From Pseudonocardia hierapolitana (lineage in GTDB: Bacteria > Actinomycetota > Actinomycetes > Mycobacteriales > Pseudonocardiaceae), in NCBI RefSeq assembly GCF_007994075.1, contig NZ_VIWU01000001.1:1612001-1676000 (forward strand): DNA of 64,000 nucleotides, in the 5' to 3' direction. The notes under the pieces are model-generated. The model did not search any database. It was not told the DNA's origin and saw only the letters and a list, made by a program, of their open reading frames with translations. Of the stretch, positions 3,908-30,356 are shown piece after piece; the stretch's first letter is position 1, and every line of letters begins with the position of its first letter. A program made the position numbers and the translations under genes.

Positions 3908-5072
3908 GGACGACACCCCGCTCCACCAGTGCGTCGATCTGGTCGGGGGTGAGGTCGAGCCCGGCGAGGATGTCGCGCGTGTGCTGGCCCAGCGCGGGCG
4001 GCAGGGACCGCAGGCCAGGCCGCTCGCCGTCGTAGCGCACGGGGTGCCCGAGCACGGCGACCTCGCCCGCGGTCGGGTGCTCGAAACGCAGCACCGACCC
4101 GTTGTGGCGCACCTGGGGGTCGTCGACGACCGCCGCGTAGTCGTTGACCGGTGCGAACCACACCTTGCGCTCGGTGAACAGGTCCTCCCACTCCTTCGTC
4201 GTGCGGCCAACGAGGTGGCCGGCGACCCGCTCGTTGATCTCCTCCCGGCGGGCCAGCACCTCGTCGTCGCCGACCGTCGCGAACCACGGGTCGTCGAGCA
4301 CCTCCGCCAGCACGGGCGGGGCCGTGATGGAGACGCAGATGTGCCCGTCCGCGGTCGGGAAGACGCCGTAGGGCGCCTTGTAGTACATCGACGAGATCCG
4401 CGACGGGCTGCGCTCGCCGCGGAACCCGTTGAGGTGGTACGCGAGCGGCTCGATCTGCAGGTCGAGGGCGGCGCTGAGCAGGTTGCTCTCGACCAGGCAA
4501 CCCCGACCCGTGCGTTCGCGACCGTGCAGCGCGGCCAGGATGCCGAGCGCGCCGAGGACGGCGCCGTGCTGGTCGACGACCGAGGCGCCGACCGGGGTGG
4601 GCGGGGCCTCCCCGCCGCCGGTGGCGTGCGCGAGCCCGGACAGCGACTGGATCAGGACGTCCTGGCCCGGGCGGTCCTTGTAGGGCCCGTCGGATCCGTA
4701 GCCCGACAGCGAGCAGTACACGAGCCGCGGGTTGATCTCCTTCAGCGACTCGTAGCCGAGGCCGAGGCGATCCATCGTGCTCGGGCGGAAGCTCTCGATC
4801 AGGACGTCGGCGTCGGCGAGGAGCCTGCGCAGCAGCTCGATCGACTCGGGCGCCTTCATGTCGATGCTCAGGCTGCGCGCGTTGCGGTTGCCCAGCAGGA
4901 AGAAGACGCTCTCGCCGTCGAGGTAGGCGTCGGGGCCCGACCAGCCGCGCTCGAACGCGCCGCCGGTCGGCTCGACCTTGATCACGTCGGCGCCGAGGTC
5001 GGCGAGGATCTGCGTGGCCGAAGGGCCCTGCAGGAAATGGGTGAAGCTGACGACGGACACGCCCGAGAGCAC
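3900..5072 (-). CDS. Class III CoA-transferase (CaiB/BaiF family)
   Basis: A protein of 390 residues, typical of the formyl-CoA/carnitine CoA-transferase family. Family signatures are ADLGADVIKVEP near the N-terminus, LGNRNARSLSIDMK, and the VGASVVDQHGAVLGALGILAAL region. The last carries the aspartate that forms the acyl anhydride with the substrate. The GTG start is preceded by GGGAGG at a good distance. It sits 23 bases after the MHS transporter and overlaps the crotonase gene. Inferred role: moving CoA onto the acid imported or produced by this operon, so that the hydratase can act. Confidence 0.88.
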   Translation of the reverse strand: MLSGVSVVSFTHFLQGPSATQILADLGADVIKVEPTGGAFERGWSGPDAYLDGESVFFLLGNRNARSLSIDMKAPESIELLRRLLADADVLIESFRPSTMDRLGLGYESLKEINPRLVYCSLSGYGSDGPYKDRPGQDVLIQSLSGLAHATGGGEAPPTPVGASVVDQHGAVLGALGILAALHGRERTGRGCLVESNLLSAALDLQIEPLAYHLNGFRGERSPSRISSMYYKAPYGVFPTADGHICVSITAPPVLAEVLDDPWFATVGDDEVLARREEINERVAGHLVGRTTKEWEDLFTERKVWFAPVNDYAAVVDDPQVRHNGSVLRFEHPTAGEVAVLGHPVRYDGERPGLRSLPPALGQHTRDILAGLDLTPDQIDALVERGVVRG

Positions 5073-23551: not shown

Positions 23552-23884
23552 CTACTTCGGAGGCAACGTGCGCGCGTGGGCGGCGCCGCGCCCGACCCAC
23601 GTGGCGAGCTGATCCTCGGTGCGCACGTCCTCGGGCTCGACGCGGAGGAAGCCCGTCATGGTGCGTCCGCCCATCACCATCGGGAACGCGGCCGTGGACG
23701 CCAGGAGCCGTTCGCGCTCGGCGGGATCGATGCGCACCAGGATGCCGCCCTCGCGGCTGGCGCAGACCGCCATGTTGCCGCTCAGGAGGAACGCCAGGCC
23801 GCCGAACATCTTCTGTTCGGACAGGTCCGACTCGCCGGCCAGAAGGTCGCGGATCCGCTCCGCCAGGTCCTCGTCGTACGCCAC
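23552..23884 (-). CDS. TfoX N-terminal-domain protein
   Basis: A protein of 110 residues from GTG. It has the TfoX_N pattern: YDEDLAERIRDLLAG, SEQKMFGGLAFLLSGNMAVC and ILVRIDPAERERLL, with MGGRTMTGFLRVEPEDV later. This is the small alpha/beta domain found alone in many actinobacteria, where competence control is not implied. It is the last gene of a four-gene minus-strand series starting at 27780, ten bases after the glycohydrolase. Its role there is unknown. Confidence 0.82.
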   Translation of the reverse strand: MAYDEDLAERIRDLLAGESDLSEQKMFGGLAFLLSGNMAVCASREGGILVRIDPAERERLLASTAAFPMVMGGRTMTGFLRVEPEDVRTEDQLATWVGRGAAHARTLPPK

Positions 23885-23894
23885 CGGGCGGACG

Positions 23895-24845
23895 CTACGC
23901 GCGGCCCCCGACACCGGCGATCGCCTCGGCCATGGCCGTGAGGTCGTCGGCCCGCAGCCCCGGCCACCCGTGCACGGCGGCCCGCCACTCGTCCGGCACC
24001 GCGCTCGCGCCGTGGGCCGCCCCGAGCAGCCCGCCCGCGATCGCCGCGACGGTGTCGGTGTCCCCGCCCCCGCGCACGGCCGCCTGCAGCCCGTCCACCA
24101 GACCGCTCGTGTGCACGATCGCCGACCACGCGGCCTGGAGCGCCGCGACCACCCAGCCGTTCGACGACGCGAACCGCTCCGGCGGGGCCTGCTCGGCCTC
24201 GTCGAGCACGCCCGGCCACTGCGGCCCGACGAGGTCGAGCCCGGCCCGCACGTCGAGCTCGCCGGTCCGGACGGCGTGGTCGATGGCAAGGCACCACAGG
24301 ACACAGGCGTCGCCTGCCTGCGGGTCGTGGTGGGTCAGTGCGCTCACCACGCGCGCGGCCGCCGCGATCGCGGCCCGGTCACCGAGGTGCGCGAGCGCGA
24401 CGGGTGCGGTGCGCATCAAGGAGCCGTTGCCGGCGCTGCGGCCGGTCGAGGCGTGGACCTCGGCTGCGCGCATCAGCATCCGGCCTGCGGCCCCGTCCTC
24501 CGGCGTGCCTCCCATGGGCCCGAGCACGGAACGGGTCTGGACGCCGATGTCCGCCGGGCCGTCGGCGTGCCAGCGCAGGAAGCCCGCGGCGATCGCATCG
24601 AGTGCGGCCTTCTCACGCAGGTCGGCGTGCCTGGCGGCCACCTGCGCGATCACGCTCGTCATCTCGGTGTCGTCGCTCCACTGCCCCGGCGCGTAGTCGC
24701 CGAGCCCGCCGCCGAGCATGCGGGCCTGCTCGCCCGGCCCGGGAAGGGGCCTGCTGCCGTACTCGTAGGGAACGCCCAGCGCGTCGCCCACCGCGACGCC
24801 GAGCAGCGTGCCGACGACCCGATCGATGTCGAATCCCGCTCCCAC
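23895..24845 (-). CDS. ADP-ribosylglycohydrolase (DraG/ARH) family protein
   Basis: A protein of 316 residues. Motifs for the dinuclear metal site are present: VGDALGVPYEYG at about 16-27, GQWSDDTEMT at about 55-64, GNGSLMRTAPVAL in the middle, and GGDTDTVAAIAGGLLGAAHG at about 255-274. Known of the family: removal of ADP-ribose from arginine or other residues, from DNA or RNA ends, or from small molecules. It begins two bases after the methylase stop and so probably belongs to the same transcript. That could make it a reverser or antitoxin in the operon, though a housekeeping role is also possible. Confidence 0.85.
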   Translation of the reverse strand: MGAGFDIDRVVGTLLGVAVGDALGVPYEYGSRPLPGPGEQARMLGGGLGDYAPGQWSDDTEMTSVIAQVAARHADLREKAALDAIAAGFLRWHADGPADIGVQTRSVLGPMGGTPEDGAAGRMLMRAAEVHASTGRSAGNGSLMRTAPVALAHLGDRAAIAAAARVVSALTHHDPQAGDACVLWCLAIDHAVRTGELDVRAGLDLVGPQWPGVLDEAEQAPPERFASSNGWVVAALQAAWSAIVHTSGLVDGLQAAVRGGGDTDTVAAIAGGLLGAAHGASAVPDEWRAAVHGWPGLRADDLTAMAEAIAGVGGRA

Positions 24846-24847
24846 CG

Positions 24848-27133
24848 TCAGTCGCTCTCCGATCTCCGCAGTCCGCTCACCAGCGAGGCCAGCAGCAGTT
24901 CCCGGACCTCGACGACGAGCGAGCCGAGCCGGTCGTGGAGCATGGCATTCGCGTCGACGGCCCCGAGGAGCCCTCCTACGGCCTGCTGCACAGGCATCGC
25001 CGGCAGAGCGACGGGAAGATCGGCCAGAGTTCTCGAGCTGATCGAACGGACTGCAGACCCGGAGCTGTTCCGATCAATCCAGTCCCGGGCCTCGGGCGTC
25101 CCGAGGTAGTACGTCAGATACGAGGAGTCGACGGGATGCCGCGGGCGGAGCCGAATGCAGCCGGGCCCCAGGAACCAGCCCTCTTCCGCGGGTGCGACCA
25201 GGCCGACCCTGCCTGGTTCGCCCGTGCGGACGCAGACCACATCACCTTCATCCAGCCGGTAACGCGACAACCTCGCACTCTCCCCCTCCCCGACGAACTC
25301 CGTGTCTCCGGCCAGAGCGTTGTAGCGGATGGTGCGGGGCACGACGAGCCGCCATGGCGATTCGCGCCCCATGAGCCTGGCCACGTACCCGGGTCCGGCC
25401 AGGATGTCGCAAACATCGCCCAACAGGACCTTCTGCCATCCCGACGGAAGCCCTCGCCGGAAGACGTCCTCCTCATCGACGCGTGAGAGCCTGTCGTCGA
25501 GCACCCGGTCGAGCTCCCTTGCCCGATTCCCGAGCTCGGTCAGCTCTGATCTCACGTCGGCGACCGTTCGCATCCCCGAAGCAACGCCTGGCACGACCGT
25601 TGCGGTCTCGACGTACGAACGCGGGTTCAGGACGAATCTGCGCTCACGGATCTCCTCGACCCGCGCGCTCCGGGCGAGCCCACGCGGCGGCTCGTACCCG
25701 GCCGTTCCTCCGCTGTCGCGCCAGCCGTGGTACGCGCCGACGATCTGCTCGACATCCTCGTCGCCGAGCTCCCGCCGGCTGCGATCGCGGATCGATCCCA
25801 GGTGCGTCGCATCGACGAAAAGCACTTCGGGGACGGTCTGCTGCCGAGGCACCCGCAGGATCCAAAGCGTCACCGGGATACCTGTGGAGGTGAACAATCC
25901 CGGAGGGAGCGCGATCACACATTCGACGACACCGGCCTCGACCATCCTCGCCCTGATGGCGGCTTCGGACCGGTTCTCAGTGGTAGTGGCGGCATTCGCC
26001 ATCAGGACGGCGGCCCGACCGCCGGGACGGAGCGCCGCCGCCGCGTGCTGCAGCCATGCGAAGTTCGCGTTGTGGGGCGGAGGCTCACCGTACCGCCACC
26101 GCTTGTCGAGCGTGGGAGCCTGCGACGTCCAATTCGTCAGACCGAAGGGCGGGTTGGCGAGTACGACGTCGAACTCGTTCTCGATTCCGACGCCGGCCTC
26201 GAGCACCATCGACCGGATGACATCGATGTCGATCCCGGCGAGCGCGGCGCTCATCGACGTGCGTTGAGCATGACGCTCGCTTGCGGCATGGCCCGTCAGC
26301 GAGACGCGTCCTGATTCCGCCGAGCTGCCCCACACATGGAGGGCTGCGCCTAGGAGCAGCTCCCCGGACCGGCAGAAGGGGTCGTACACCCGATCCGAAG
26401 AGGTCGGCGCCGTCACGCCGACCATGACGCGCGTCACGGAGAGCGGCGTGTAGGTGTCCCCCCGTCGCCCCGTCGCGGAGGCCATCCGCCCCTGCAGTTC
26501 GAGGAGGAAGCGAGCGACGTCGCCCTTGTCGGTAGGAATGGCGAACGCGTCGACGACGTGGACGAGCAGGGAGAGCACGCGCTCACGCCCGGCATCCCGC
26601 ACCTGGTCCACGACCTGCTGGGGTAGCGATATGCGTGCCTGGTCCTGCAGGGCGCGATCCAGCGCATCACGCAGCACGTCGGACCGCGGCTCCTGCGTCA
26701 CCCCTCTCCAGAGCCGCCGATGCCGGAGCTTGAGGATCAGCAGGGCCTCGAACAGGTCGAACGCCGAATCGATGTCGAGGAACCCGCGCACCTTGTCCAT
26801 GGCTGACCACATCGCGCTGACGACATCCGGCTCGCGCTGCGCCGGAGGCGGCTCGACCGCGTGCGCGGCCTCGATCGGCATGCCGCTGTTCCTCAGGAAC
26901 CGGTCGCCGTACGTGGTGCCCGGATGCTCATCGGGCCTCAACCCGTTCTTCGGGATTCGACGGGCTCCCAGCCACTCTGCGATCTCACTGAAGGCGAACA
27001 TCTCCTGGCCACCCGTCCGCCTGGGGTCCGGAAAGGTGAGATGCCGCTTCCGCCAGTTGCTGACGGCAGCAGGGCCGACCCCCGCCAACCGCGCCACATC
27101 CGTAGCGGAAACCAGACGAACGGCTCTCGTCAT
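24848..27133 (-). CDS. N6-adenine DNA methylase fused to HTH and type I specificity-like domain
   Basis: A protein of 761 residues in three parts. An N-terminal helix-turn-helix (SATDVARLAGVGPAAVSNWR, about 9-28) is followed by an HsdM-like methylase at about 200-490. Its motif I reads VYDPFCRSGELLLGAAL, a variant of DPxCGSG, and its motif IV NPPFGLTNW is intact. From about 560 comes an HsdS-like recognition domain (LPSGWQKVLLGDVCDILAGP, then VVCVRTGEPGRVGLVAP, SYLTYYLGTPEARDWI). No HsdR nuclease is encoded nearby. The ATG overlaps the stop of the Abi-like gene. It probably methylates a specific site, and restriction or toxicity would come from its neighbours; this link is inference. Confidence 0.85.
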   Translation of the reverse strand: MTRAVRLVSATDVARLAGVGPAAVSNWRKRHLTFPDPRRTGGQEMFAFSEIAEWLGARRIPKNGLRPDEHPGTTYGDRFLRNSGMPIEAAHAVEPPPAQREPDVVSAMWSAMDKVRGFLDIDSAFDLFEALLILKLRHRRLWRGVTQEPRSDVLRDALDRALQDQARISLPQQVVDQVRDAGRERVLSLLVHVVDAFAIPTDKGDVARFLLELQGRMASATGRRGDTYTPLSVTRVMVGVTAPTSSDRVYDPFCRSGELLLGAALHVWGSSAESGRVSLTGHAASERHAQRTSMSAALAGIDIDVIRSMVLEAGVGIENEFDVVLANPPFGLTNWTSQAPTLDKRWRYGEPPPHNANFAWLQHAAAALRPGGRAAVLMANAATTTENRSEAAIRARMVEAGVVECVIALPPGLFTSTGIPVTLWILRVPRQQTVPEVLFVDATHLGSIRDRSRRELGDEDVEQIVGAYHGWRDSGGTAGYEPPRGLARSARVEEIRERRFVLNPRSYVETATVVPGVASGMRTVADVRSELTELGNRARELDRVLDDRLSRVDEEDVFRRGLPSGWQKVLLGDVCDILAGPGYVARLMGRESPWRLVVPRTIRYNALAGDTEFVGEGESARLSRYRLDEGDVVCVRTGEPGRVGLVAPAEEGWFLGPGCIRLRPRHPVDSSYLTYYLGTPEARDWIDRNSSGSAVRSISSRTLADLPVALPAMPVQQAVGGLLGAVDANAMLHDRLGSLVVEVRELLLASLVSGLRRSESD

Positions 27134-27780
27134 CCTGTCTCCCCACGCGTTCCGATCGCGCTCCGTCCGGCGAGGAGGCGGGGAACCCGATCGCGCGGGA
27201 GGAGTTCTTCGACGACCTCCGGCGACAATTGCCTGAGGAGCCGGTAGACCGTCGCGTGGTCGGCCTCGAGGTGCCGGTGGTGGATCGGCTCATGGTGCAT
27301 GATGCGGTTCCGAAGCACGAGGACGTTGTCGTAGTCCTGGTGCAGCGCCCCGCGATCCGCTCCGGGAAACACCCGGTGGAGAGCGGGCGTCCAGAGAGTC
27401 CGGTGATACCGGCCGCTCAGCAGCGAGACCCAGAATCCGAGCGTCAGCTGCGCGACGACGTCGTCCGGCACTTCCGGCCGCTGCTGGAGCCGGACCAGAT
27501 TCCGCTTCGCCTCCGCGACCTTGCGCCGCCCGTTCTCATTGAGTGGAGCCGACCGCCACCAGTCCGGCCGGGAGAACCTCGTGGCGAGCCTGCGATGCAG
27601 AGCGTTGCGCAGCGCCAGCTCGAGCCGGTTGAGCGGCACCACGAACGCAGCCGCCACCTCGAGATTCCACCACTCCAGGTCGACCGCTGCCTCGGCATTT
27701 CCCCCGGCCGCCGTGAGATAGGGCGTGAACCTCGGCTCCGACAGGACGGCGCTGACCCATGCGGGCGGTTCGGTCCCCAT
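27130..27780 (-). CDS. Abi-like (Abi_2/AbiD-F type) HEPN-family protein
   Basis: About 216 residues from the ATG at 27780, which has AGAGGGGG upstream. Family landmarks: VPLNRLELALRNALHRRL near 45-65, VVAQLTLGFWVSLLSGRYHR, and the catalytic-like HEPN motif RNRIMHHEPI (R-x4-H) near 160. HEPN proteins of this kind are RNases in abortive infection and toxin systems. The stop codon overlaps the methylase start as ATGA. Gene order suggests a toxin-like RNase made first, with the methylase fusion and glycohydrolase coupled to it. Confidence 0.8.
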   Translation of the reverse strand: MGTEPPAWVSAVLSEPRFTPYLTAAGGNAEAAVDLEWWNLEVAAAFVVPLNRLELALRNALHRRLATRFSRPDWWRSAPLNENGRRKVAEAKRNLVRLQQRPEVPDDVVAQLTLGFWVSLLSGRYHRTLWTPALHRVFPGADRGALHQDYDNVLVLRNRIMHHEPIHHRHLEADHATVYRLLRQLSPEVVEELLPRDRVPRLLAGRSAIGTRGETG

Positions 27781-27921
27781 GGCGTCCCCCTCTGCCGACA
27801 GAGGGCAGCCGAAAGCCGGCTGTGCTACGCTCGCTGTCGTAGGCCCCGGGTCGCCCCTGCTTCGCATGCCGCCCGGGGCAAGCTCATGTCCGGGCCACTC
27901 GTCCTCACCTCAGTGACGACC

Positions 27922-27951
27922 ACAGTATCGCCAGACCCGAGGTTCGGTCAA
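27922..27951 (-). promoter_or_regulatory. Promoter of the Abi-methylase operon
   Basis: On the minus strand, TTGACC (27951-27946) and TACTGT (27927-27922) stand 18 bases apart. This gives a transcript starting about 130 bases before the Abi-like ATG. It is one of the better matches to a sigma70/HrdB-type promoter in the window. A 12-base palindrome lies directly upstream. Confidence 0.55.
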
Positions 27952-27955
27952 GTAA

Positions 27956-27967
27956 TCGAGTACTCGA
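27956..27967. promoter_or_regulatory. Palindrome upstream of the Abi operon promoter
   Basis: TCGAGTACTCGA is a perfect 12-base palindrome, five bases upstream of the proposed -35 element and about 55 bases before the M13 peptidase start on the other strand. It could be an activator or repressor site for either gene. Confidence 0.4.
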
Positions 27968-28023
27968 AACTGTGAAGGCCGGTGTCGGTCGCGTCCGCGG
28001 GCGGGCGGGCATGATGGGGAGCC

Positions 28024-29985
28024 GTGACGACCTCGGCAATCCGCTCGGGGCTCGACCTGCGCTGGGTCGATCCCGCCATCCGCCCCCAGGACGACCTGTT
28101 CGGCCACGTCAACGGGACCTGGCTGCGCACGCACGTGATCCCCGACGACCGGGCGCAGGACGGTGCGTTCCGCGCGCTGTACGACAAGGCCGAGGAGGAC
28201 GTGCGCGCGATCATCGAGGAGGCCGACGGCGAGCCGGGCACCGACGCGCGCAAGATCGCCGACCTGTACGCCTCCTTCATGGACGTCGAGCGGATCGAGG
28301 CGCTCGGCACGGCGCCGCTGAAGCCGCTCCTCGACGAGGTCGCGGCCGCCGAGGACCGCGCCGCGCTCGCCGAGGTGCTCGGCCGTCGCCAGCGGGAGGC
28401 GCGCACGGCGCTCTTCGGCGCGTTCGTCTCCACCGACCCCAAGAACGCCACGCGCTACCTGGTGCAGCTCGAGCAGTCCGGGCTGGGCCTGCCCGACGAG
28501 TCCTACTACCGCGAGGACGCCTACGCCGAGATCCGCAAGGCGTACGTCACGCACCTCGCGCGCCTCGCCGAGCTCGTCGGGCTGCCCGACCCGGCCGGGC
28601 TCGCCGAGCGCGTGCTGGACCTCGAAACCGCGCTCGCGGCCGCCTCGTGGGACCGCGTCACCAACCGCGACGCGGAGAAGACCTACACCCTCATGACGCT
28701 GCCGGCGCTGCGGCAGAACGCGCCCGAGTTCGACTGGGAGCCGTGGCTCGCGGCGTTCGGCGCTCCGGAGGGCGCCTTCGACGAGATCATCGTGCGGCAG
28801 CCGAGCTTCGTCGCCGCGGCCGCGAAGCTGTGGGCCGAGCGGCCGCTGTCGCAGTGGCAGGAGTGGCTCGCGATCCACACGGCCTCCGCCTGCGCCGACT
28901 ACCTCACCGCGGCGATCGTCGAGGAGGACTTCGACTTCCACGGCCGCACGTTGTCGGGCACGCCACAGCTGCGGGAGCGGTGGAAGCGCGGGGTCGGCGT
29001 CGTCCAGGGGGCGCTCGGGGAGGCGGTCGGCAAGCTCTACGTCGACCGGCACTTCCCCGGCGAGGCGAAGGAACGGATGGTCCAGCTCGTCGCCAACCTC
29101 GTCGAGGCCTACCGGCAGAGCATCAGCGAGCTGGACTGGATGAGCCCGGCCACGCGCGAGCGGGCGCTGACCAAGCTCGGGAAGTTCGGTTCCAAGATCG
29201 GTTACCCGGAGAAGTGGAAGGACTACTCGGCCCTGGAGATCCGGGCCGACGACCTGCTCGGCAACGCGCTGCGCGCGGGAGCCTGGTCCACCGACTTCCA
29301 GCTCGCCAAGATCGGCCGGCCGGTGGACCGCGACGAGTGGCTGATGACGCCGCAGACCGTCAACGCCTACTACCACCCGCGGATGAACGAGATCGTCTTC
29401 CCGGCCGCGATCCTGCAGCCGCCGTTCTTCGACGCGGCGGCCGACGACGCGGCCAACTACGGCGGGATCGGCGCCGTCATCGGGCACGAGATCGGGCACG
29501 GGTTCGACGACCAGGGCTCCAAGTACGACGGCGACGGCAACATGACCGACTGGTGGGAGCCGGGCGACCGCGCCGAGTTCGAGCGCCGCGCCCAGGCGCT
29601 GATCGACCAGTACAGCGCGCTGTCCCCCGCCGGGCTGCCCGACCACAAGGTCAACGGCGCGCTCACCGTCGGCGAGAACATCGGCGACCTCGGTGGGCTG
29701 ACCATCGCGATCAAGGCGTACGAGATCGCGCTGGGCGGCGAGCAGGCGCCGGTGATCGACGGATTCACCGGGCTGCAGCGGGTGCTCATCGGCTGGGCGC
29801 AGGTGTGGCGGATCGTCACCCGCGAGGCCGAGGCGATCCGGCGGCTCGCCGTCGACCCGCACTCGCCGCCCGACCTGCGCTGCAACGCCGTCATCTCGAA
29901 CCTCGACGCCTTCCACGAGGCGTTCGACGTGCAGCCCTCCGACGCGCTCTACCGGGCGCCTGCGGAGCGGGTGCGCATCTGGTGA
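28024..29985 (+). CDS. M13-family zinc metallopeptidase (PepO/neprilysin-like)
   Basis: A protein of 653 residues from GTG. The zinc motif is GAVIGHEIGHGFDDQGSKYD (HExxH, about 487-491). The third ligand lies in the GENIGDLGGLTIA block downstream (ExxxD, about 556). An N-terminal PQDDLFGHVNGTWL block and VNAYYHPRMNEIVFPAAILQ before the zinc site are typical. No signal peptide is visible, so it probably cleaves peptides in the cytoplasm. The GTGA overlap at its end couples it to a small HTH gene. Confidence 0.92.
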   Translation: MTTSAIRSGLDLRWVDPAIRPQDDLFGHVNGTWLRTHVIPDDRAQDGAFRALYDKAEEDVRAIIEEADGEPGTDARKIADLYASFMDVERIEALGTAPLKPLLDEVAAAEDRAALAEVLGRRQREARTALFGAFVSTDPKNATRYLVQLEQSGLGLPDESYYREDAYAEIRKAYVTHLARLAELVGLPDPAGLAERVLDLETALAAASWDRVTNRDAEKTYTLMTLPALRQNAPEFDWEPWLAAFGAPEGAFDEIIVRQPSFVAAAAKLWAERPLSQWQEWLAIHTASACADYLTAAIVEEDFDFHGRTLSGTPQLRERWKRGVGVVQGALGEAVGKLYVDRHFPGEAKERMVQLVANLVEAYRQSISELDWMSPATRERALTKLGKFGSKIGYPEKWKDYSALEIRADDLLGNALRAGAWSTDFQLAKIGRPVDRDEWLMTPQTVNAYYHPRMNEIVFPAAILQPPFFDAAADDAANYGGIGAVIGHEIGHGFDDQGSKYDGDGNMTDWWEPGDRAEFERRAQALIDQYSALSPAGLPDHKVNGALTVGENIGDLGGLTIAIKAYEIALGGEQAPVIDGFTGLQRVLIGWAQVWRIVTREAEAIRRLAVDPHSPPDLRCNAVISNLDAFHEAFDVQPSDALYRAPAERVRIW

Positions 29986-30356
29986 CCGAGCGCTGGACCG
30001 GCGCCGAGTGCGCGGCCGCGTGGGGCGTGAAGCCCGGGACCTGGCTCGGCTACGTCTCACGCGGCCAGGCACCGCAGCCGATCCCGGAGCCCGACGCGCA
30101 GGGACGCAAGCAGTGGGACGCCGACGAGGTGCGCCGCTGGCCGCGCCCGGGTGCGGGACACCGCCGGGCCGCCGCCGGCCCCGAGGCCGAGGCGCTGCTC
30201 GCGCAGATGCGGGAGGTCGCCGACCGGATCGAGGAGCTGCGCGTCCGCCAGCGGGAGCTGCTGTCCGCCGGGAAGCGGGAGGGGCTGGAGATCAGCGCGA
30301 TGGCCAAGGCCCTCGGGATCTCCCGGCAGACGGCCTACGGGTGGCTCGCCGAGTGA
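29982..30356 (+). CDS. Small helix-turn-helix DNA-binding protein
   Basis: A protein of 124 residues that starts inside the last codon of the peptidase gene (GTGA overlap). Near the N-terminus is a short region, WTGAECAAAWGVKPGTWLGY, like an AlpA/MerR-type site. A basic, coiled middle follows (AQMREVADRIEELRVRQREL). The C-terminal KALGISRQTAYGWLAE is a clear helix-turn-helix. It has two candidate DNA-binding ends joined by a coiled coil. Possibly a nucleoid-associated or regulatory protein; the target is unknown. Confidence 0.65.
   Translation: MTERWTGAECAAAWGVKPGTWLGYVSRGQAPQPIPEPDAQGRKQWDADEVRRWPRPGAGHRRAAAGPEAEALLAQMREVADRIEELRVRQRELLSAGKREGLEISAMAKALGISRQTAYGWLAE

Follow-up and report, generated by a model that had tools for sequence, protein, structure and literature searches.

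The window analysed here, a stretch of 64,000 nucleotides from Pseudonocardia hierapolitana (contig NZ_VIWU01000001.1, positions 1,612,001 to 1,676,000), carries on its minus strand a HEPN ribonuclease gene coupled to a gene for a solitary helix-turn-helix (HTH)-methylase-specificity fusion protein (M/S), together with a predicted small hairpin RNA on the opposite strand. This locus is probably a toxin-antitoxin cassette of the AbiF type, in which the HEPN RNase would be guarded by the RNA and the common promoter of the two genes would be repressed by M/S. The earlier note on this DNA had described four minus-strand genes that overlap or lie 2-10 bases apart behind a promoter with an upstream palindrome. 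The open reading frames agree with that description, with all four genes present at the spacings given: the HEPN and M/S genes share a 4-base ATGA overlap at 27130-27133, M/S is followed after 2 bases by an ADP-ribosylglycohydrolase gene, and the latter after 10 bases by a TfoX_N gene. The promoter and palindrome were likewise recovered. As set out below, the HEPN-M/S pair recurs in other genomes, and the four-gene set does not.

The HEPN gene (27130..27780, minus strand) encodes an AbiF-type RNase toxin of 216 residues, with the RNxxxH motif at residues 157-162. The earlier note had proposed a HEPN-like RNase candidate, and this is borne out by the motif, of which R157, N158 and H162 are invariant in all 40 aligned HEPN proteins, and by a match to the PADLOC profile of PD-T4-5 at 9e-10; the protein was also found to have the AbiF fold. 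The start had to be moved. Aligned homologues begin at the methionine encoded at 27780, so the version of 245 residues starting at 27867 was dropped and the 87 bases at 27781-27867 are non-coding; they contain part of a conserved RNA element that had been missed. Foldseek alone gave no PDB match for the HEPN protein at E <= 0.001, a PDB sequence search with the HEPN profile gave none at E <= 1, and the Pfam Abi_2 profile did not match the protein at E <= 0.1. No Abi_2 match was found in the rest of the genome either, and the same search put the family above its cut-off in 0 of 14 controls; an intermediate relative (L029) reaches 29.7 bits with Abi_2, the cut-off being 25.6. A second HEPN of this kind was not found in the genome at E <= 0.001.

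The M/S gene (24848..27133, minus strand) encodes 761 residues and joins an HTH, an HsdM-like N6 adenine methylase (residues 216-512) and a single HsdS-like recognition domain (563-728), so that methylase and recognition domains reside in one polypeptide. The Pfam matches are N6_Mtase at 7e-59, one Methylase_S at 1e-8 and a weak N-terminal MerR/HTH_17. The NPPF motif is invariant in 23 of 23 aligned sequences, including that of the window, and the variant motif I, DPFCRSGELL, is common to several of them. The architecture read earlier from the sequence, with its variant motif I and intact NPPF, is upheld by these matches and the alignment, and so is the absence of a restriction nuclease: HsdR_N (PF04313) was not found anywhere in the genome, while the same search was positive in 9 of 14 control genomes. 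Two more HTH plus N6-methylase proteins are encoded in the same genome, at G000:C1:1584055-1585032 and 5414288-5415319 (L101, L102).

The association of HEPN with M/S was surveyed in 394 genomes, an even sample of the class. Nineteen HEPN genes scored at least 200 bits, and 12 of them stand beside M/S (odds ratio 63, p 1e-12), with one gene order and strand, HEPN first, kept in all 12. The 22 M/S loci of this sample were classed by hand as full length or as M plus S pieces, G418 and G443 being partial matches to the hidden Markov model. At least 11 loci with HEPN directly upstream of M/S on the same strand were also seen among the 80 M/S-alignment matches listed, which are mostly HsdM-like genes from other phyla; these 11 belong to Frankia, Amycolatopsis (2), Actinomadura, Streptomyces (4), Nocardia, Micromonospora and Sphaerimonospora. 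Two lists of the 120 closest proteins apparently share 23 contigs, that of the window included. HEPN and the methylase form a two-gene module that recurs, and the coupling proposed in the earlier note stands, with a linkage far beyond chance.

One could also regard the locus as a decayed type I restriction-modification (R-M) system, with M/S as an ordinary orphan methylase and HEPN as a passenger without any regulatory link. Consistent with such decay, M/S occurs without HEPN in 10 of the 22 class M/S loci, and L188 and L190 carry HEPN plus an HTH-methylase ahead of HsdM and HsdS, L190 also with HsdR. The strength of the linkage, the single order and strand in the 12 class genomes and the fact that the linkage goes with one promoter type make this reading distinctly improbable.

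Other RNase genes were seen next to M/S. In G045, of the same genus, a gene for an NYN-domain RNase (PF01936 at 5e-11; L096:5617-6285, plus strand) lies directly upstream of M/S on the same strand; one toxin may here have been exchanged for another. An MNT-HepT pair and a PIN-domain gene adjoin M/S genes without HEPN (L260:4061-4832, plus strand; L264:4269-4703, minus strand), the PIN gene in G116 and the MNT-HepT pair in G117.

A conserved RNA element, which was found through the same 'junk' peptides in upstream-extended HEPN reading frames of unrelated genera, precedes the toxin gene. All 32 distinct HEPN loci scoring 200 bits or more, 23 of them with M/S, have the core of this element 57-117 nucleotides ahead of the start of HEPN. 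These loci were obtained by dropping HEPN matches with a cut N-terminus, with less than 150 nucleotides upstream or with identical upstream sequence, which left 64, among them the 32 of at least 200 bits. In the window, the hairpin of this abiF-like RNA (27843..27879, plus strand) has the stem GCCCCGGG/CCCGGGGC and was placed by a covariance model, R1, built from the 32 loci including that of the window. Six of the 8 outer pairs show compensated changes, and 95% of cells are paired, a value reached by none of 500 shuffles; in the number of pair types, the shuffles come out higher. R1 matches the window, a training locus, at 27813-27886 (71.9 bits, E 4e-18), its sole match in the 64 kb at E <= 1. 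Among 37 non-training loci, 21 matches were obtained at E <= 1, including four between 1.7e-9 and 1e-6; the match in L009 lies on a strand not fitting its HEPN gene.

In the 394 genomes, R1 gave 36 matches, of which 26 are beside HEPN by coordinates, including all 19 strong HEPN genes, most of these 26 loci having also served for building the model. The other ten are not beside HEPN; seven of them were opened (all except G267:C1:4433107, G257:C1:2119699 and G304:C1:483801), and no HEPN was found within about 1.5 kb of any. Element copies without HEPN were observed in L338 (G354), L332 (G247), L333 (G267), L335 (G175), L336 (G355) and L341 (G316), in each near position 1501, and the match in L342 is probably due to chance. 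The neighbour gene in L338 is, by eye, the same as at the HEPN loci of G402 and G464 (L297, L298), suggesting that the toxin was lost there while the RNA was kept. L190 has two copies of the element ahead of one HEPN gene (4446-4521 and 4750-4826, plus strand), a doubling that resembles the double abiF motif of RCd22. Rfam had no match in the window from 22 to 29 kb at E <= 1, and RF03085 (abiF) had none in 17 related loci at E <= 10; the element is filed as a variant with the layout of abiF RNA that lies outside RF03085.

The strand of the RNA was assessed from its promoter-like box and from true abiF RNAs. An extended -10 box, TGCTACGCT (27823..27831, plus strand), has the pattern TGnTAnnnT, and the one instance of this pattern over the 128,000 strand positions of the window is the element's own. 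Within this 20-nucleotide place, TAnnnT occurs in 32 of 32 loci and TGnTAnnnT in 26. Read on the strand opposite to HEPN, the element consists of TGnTAnnnT, GCCTCT (GCCCCT in some) 29-31 nucleotides on, a C/G stem, a loop-3' AUGC and a U-rich tail. True abiF RNAs matching RF03085 were found in two of 60 relatives, L343 (G011) and L344 (G061), near position 1501; they stand ahead of Abi-type genes and run in the same direction as those genes, and the gene of L343, the one tested, encodes a full Abi_2 protein. The order of parts is the same in abiF RNA and in the new element, and the distance to GCCTCT is 29 in both abiF cases. The 14 nucleotides past the hairpin hold on average 4.6 T on the strand opposite to HEPN and 2.9 on the other. 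Fifteen of the 32 elements have four consecutive T at the appropriate place, and the element of this window has no U-run; among 28 non-training elements, TAnnnT is in place in 22 and TTT in the tail of 20, the full extended -10 in only 6. An RNA on the HEPN strand, which was our first reading, was dropped given the abiF RNAs of L343 and L344 and the -10 statistics. Most likely, the predicted RNA is directed away from the toxin and occupies about 27838-27890 of the plus strand, and a HEPN mRNA starting at 27924 would include the complementary sequence.

The hairpin might instead be a DNA operator or a leader (attenuator) of the HEPN mRNA rather than a separate opposite-strand RNA. The element sits between the operon promoter and HEPN, and inverted repeats covary in DNA sites as they do in RNA. 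Moreover, the RNAalifold covariation term is nil, because the element is strongly conserved, and the single-strand fold of this region of the window is no better than that of shuffles; both points, together with the state of the HEPN gene in G030 described below, weigh against the RNA-guarded reading that we prefer. The operator or leader explanation is nonetheless quite unlikely, as all 32 loci have the -10 box at a constant position on the opposite strand, the inner (apical) helix of weaker R1 matches varies in length and sequence yet stays paired (alignment, by eye), the spacing is that of abiF RNA, and copies of the element occur without a nearby HEPN gene.

The HEPN-M/S operon has a sigma70-type promoter, TTGACC-16-GATACT (27924..27951, minus strand; one found, shuffle mean 0.0), and just upstream of its -35 box an operator-like palindrome, TCGAGTACTCGA (27956..27967, minus strand; shuffle fraction 0.01). 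At most 200 nucleotides upstream of the RNA element, the promoter pattern TTGnnn-16/18-TAnnnT is present in 19 of the 23 loci linked to M/S and in none of the 9 with HEPN only, or in 18 of 23 without L257, whose promoter lies far upstream and is probably wrong and which also entered the palindrome scoring. The pattern is missing from L269, L032, L190 and L188, of which L188 and L190 were counted as M/S-linked. A palindrome abutting the -35 box scores 5.1 on average in the 19 M/S-linked loci and 3.0 in 345 controls (p 4e-6), with a shuffle fraction of at most 0.05 in 12 of the 19. Its sequence varies, being TCGAGTACTCGA in the window and GCGCACTGCAGTGCGC or near-identical in many loci. GTTMACA stands 27-33 nucleotides ahead of the -35 box in 13 of the 19 loci and is absent from the window. 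L180 and L269, in which M/S has no matched N-terminal HTH, have a different palindrome, TTGTATCGCGATACAA, at the operator place.

The same kind of site was met at M/S genes lacking HEPN. Five of 14 such loci have the promoter pattern, and more of them have similar palindromes by eye; in G045, GTTAACA and a palindrome-promoter of the HEPN-M/S type precede the operon of the NYN RNase and M/S. Of the nine HEPN-only loci, L295 has a similar palindrome by eye, together with a 26-bit remnant of M/S. The operator site seems to go with M/S and not with HEPN, and the conserved promoter-palindrome suggests that M/S controls transcription. Over 26 loci, operator similarity correlated with the identity of the HTH, methylase and recognition domain at rho 0.19, 0.18 and 0.36 (partial 0.10, -0.02 and 0.30); given these weak correlations with recognition-domain and HTH identity, the binder of the operator is not settled.

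Taken together, the cassette is proposed to function as follows. The HEPN ribonuclease, which shares its operon with the solitary M/S protein here and in many other actinobacteria, would be held inactive by the small hairpin RNA, for which the opposite strand has a separate promoter of the extended -10 type. The common promoter is probably repressed by M/S, which would bind the operator at that promoter's -35 box; as long as the operator is occupied, little HEPN would be made and the RNA would neutralise it. Loss or inhibition of M/S, or its diversion, for instance to abundant unmodified sites on DNA entering the cell, might allow HEPN to outpace the RNA, cleave cellular RNA and stop growth, so that the infection would be aborted. 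As to the trigger, we infer that unmodified DNA draws M/S away from its operator or that M/S is knocked out. Production of the RNA and its binding to the toxin are presumed from the likeness to AbiF systems, and the action of the RNA from AbiF-Cd/RCd22 (accessible part of PMC12373285) and PbAbiF/AbiFr (accessible part of PMC12737573).

A guard like that of PrrC, in which M/S itself binds and inactivates HEPN until a phage disables the methylase and the RNA is only a cis regulator, would agree with the general proposal for HEPN-R-M linkages and with the Abi2/AbiF HEPN genes in R-M operons described in the accessible part of PMC3710099, as well as with the tight ATGA coupling and the linkage in 12 of 19. 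We consider it rather unlikely. The RNA element is present in 32 of 32 close HEPN loci and M/S in 23, and HEPN plus the RNA is found where a full M/S is lacking, in G016, in G030 and in 7 of the 19 class genomes. Because of these occurrences M/S is unlikely to be the sole antitoxin, and the opposite-strand RNA is the more likely neutralising partner. The earlier note had called the system modification-gated; half of this is supported, in that the promoter-palindrome suggests transcriptional control by M/S, and the toxin is more likely neutralised by the RNA, which is present with HEPN where M/S is not.

The extent of the cassette is indicated by the neighbourhoods in relatives. In G022, the M13 peptidase and glycohydrolase genes adjoin directly; the blastn blocks 28006-30356 and 23928-24829 lie about 20 bp apart, so this genome lacks a cassette of about 3.2 kb (24830..28005, minus strand), and its TfoX_N gene is found some 5 kb beyond. 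In G048, both the pair and the glycohydrolase are absent at the site and TfoX_N is still near M13. G016 has HEPN near M13 without M/S, and G054 has HEPN and M/S adjoining, with its glycohydrolase on a different contig. In G030, HEPN is followed directly by TfoX_N, which stays in the neighbourhood, without M/S or glycohydrolase; HEPN there lacks its last codons and stop and forms one open frame of 369 residues with TfoX_N (L092:10004-11113, minus strand). Its end appears lost as after a deletion, a direction of change that we infer, and this copy may be dead. The bases of a glycohydrolase end ahead of TfoX_N in G030 were taken for a deletion scar, an idea dropped since the same bases occur in G048 without a glycohydrolase there.

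The ADP-ribosylglycohydrolase (23895..24845, minus strand; PF03747, ADP_ribosyl_GH, 1e-52) and the TfoX N-terminal domain protein (23552..23884, minus strand; PF04993, TfoX_N, 2e-14) are chromosomal neighbours outside the system. A glycohydrolase survey gave some match in 53 of 100 genomes, and 29 other glycohydrolase loci (L062-L090), taken with about 1.5 kb on each side, had no HEPN or M/S within that distance. The third-position GC of HEPN (0.83) and M/S (0.82) is below that of the glycohydrolase (0.94) and the M13 peptidase (0.98), as for acquired genes. According to the earlier note, a conserved four-gene order would form a modification-gated abortive system whose glycohydrolase could remove an ADP-ribose mark. 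Such a system has in its favour the 2-10 base spacing in this genome, and is very improbable given the neighbourhoods in G022, G048, G030, G016 and G054 and the split in third-position GC; the empty site of G022 by itself already speaks against a conserved unit. The order was not conserved in those five genomes or at the 29 glycohydrolase loci, nothing linking ADP-ribose to the toxin was found, and the refuting outcome named in the earlier note, with the last two genes as constant neighbours where the first two are lacking, is largely what G022 (both genes) and G048 (TfoX_N) show. What looks like a four-gene 'operon' reflects the spacing in this genome and is not a unit in the relatives examined; glycohydrolase and TfoX_N are ruled out as parts of the system by these neighbourhoods.

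A bolder reading, possible but doubtful, is that of a methylase-sensed suicide switch, in which an autoregulating solitary M/S would be titrated off its own operator by unmodified incoming sites and the RNA-guarded AbiF RNase would thereby be freed. The toxin slot would be exchangeable, with HEPN mostly and the NYN RNase in G045, and the guard RNA would be a new, divergently transcribed relative of abiF RNA across Actinobacteria, which could persist as an orphan antitoxin after loss of the toxin.

AbiF with an RNA antitoxin is already known (type III-like; PbAbiF-AbiFr, 8VZ6; AbiF-Cd with RCd22), and the present system resembles it in the HEPN RNxxxH motif and fold and in an upstream hairpin RNA with its own promoter-like box, the distance from extended -10 to GCCTCT, a C/G stem and a U-rich tail. 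It differs in that the protein has 216 residues and no Pfam Abi_2 match, the RNA is unmatched by RF03085 and apparently divergent on the opposite strand, whereas abiF RNA leads into the toxin gene, and the operon also carries M/S. PD-T4-5, an Escherichia coli Abi defence gene, is similar through the profile match; in the accessible part of its source, the gene is plasmid-borne, no M/S is mentioned for it, and its authors regard it as a distant AbiF/D relative. HEPN families linked to R-M systems, following the PrrC-PrrI paradigm, likewise tie a HEPN RNase genetically to a DNA methylase. The accessible part of PMC3710099 had in 2013 already placed Abi2/AbiF/AbiD-kind HEPN genes inside R-M operons and put forward, with a mechanism by analogy only, that R-M subunits restrain HEPN toxins; here, in contrast, HsdR_N is lacking and each of the 32 close loci has the RNA element together with the toxin. 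No account of an AbiF toxin joined with a solitary M/S, an opposite-strand RNA and an M/S-linked operator was found in searches of an open-access library. The locus brings together an AbiF-type toxin, a candidate guard RNA undetected by Rfam and a methylase-associated promoter type, and, judging from the RNA model, further toxins of this kind can be expected in Streptomyces, Amycolatopsis, Frankia and Nocardia. Compared with type I R-M M/S fusions (publicly named 'type I restriction-modification system subunit M/S'), which share the fused HsdM and HsdS and the N-terminal HTH, the M/S described here is solitary, with an RNase toxin where the restriction nuclease would be. AbiF toxins are reported as ancestors of Cas13 in the accessible part of a review (PMC12737573); if the suicide switch is true, it would combine the sensing of an R-M system with the killing mode of the Cas13 ancestor.

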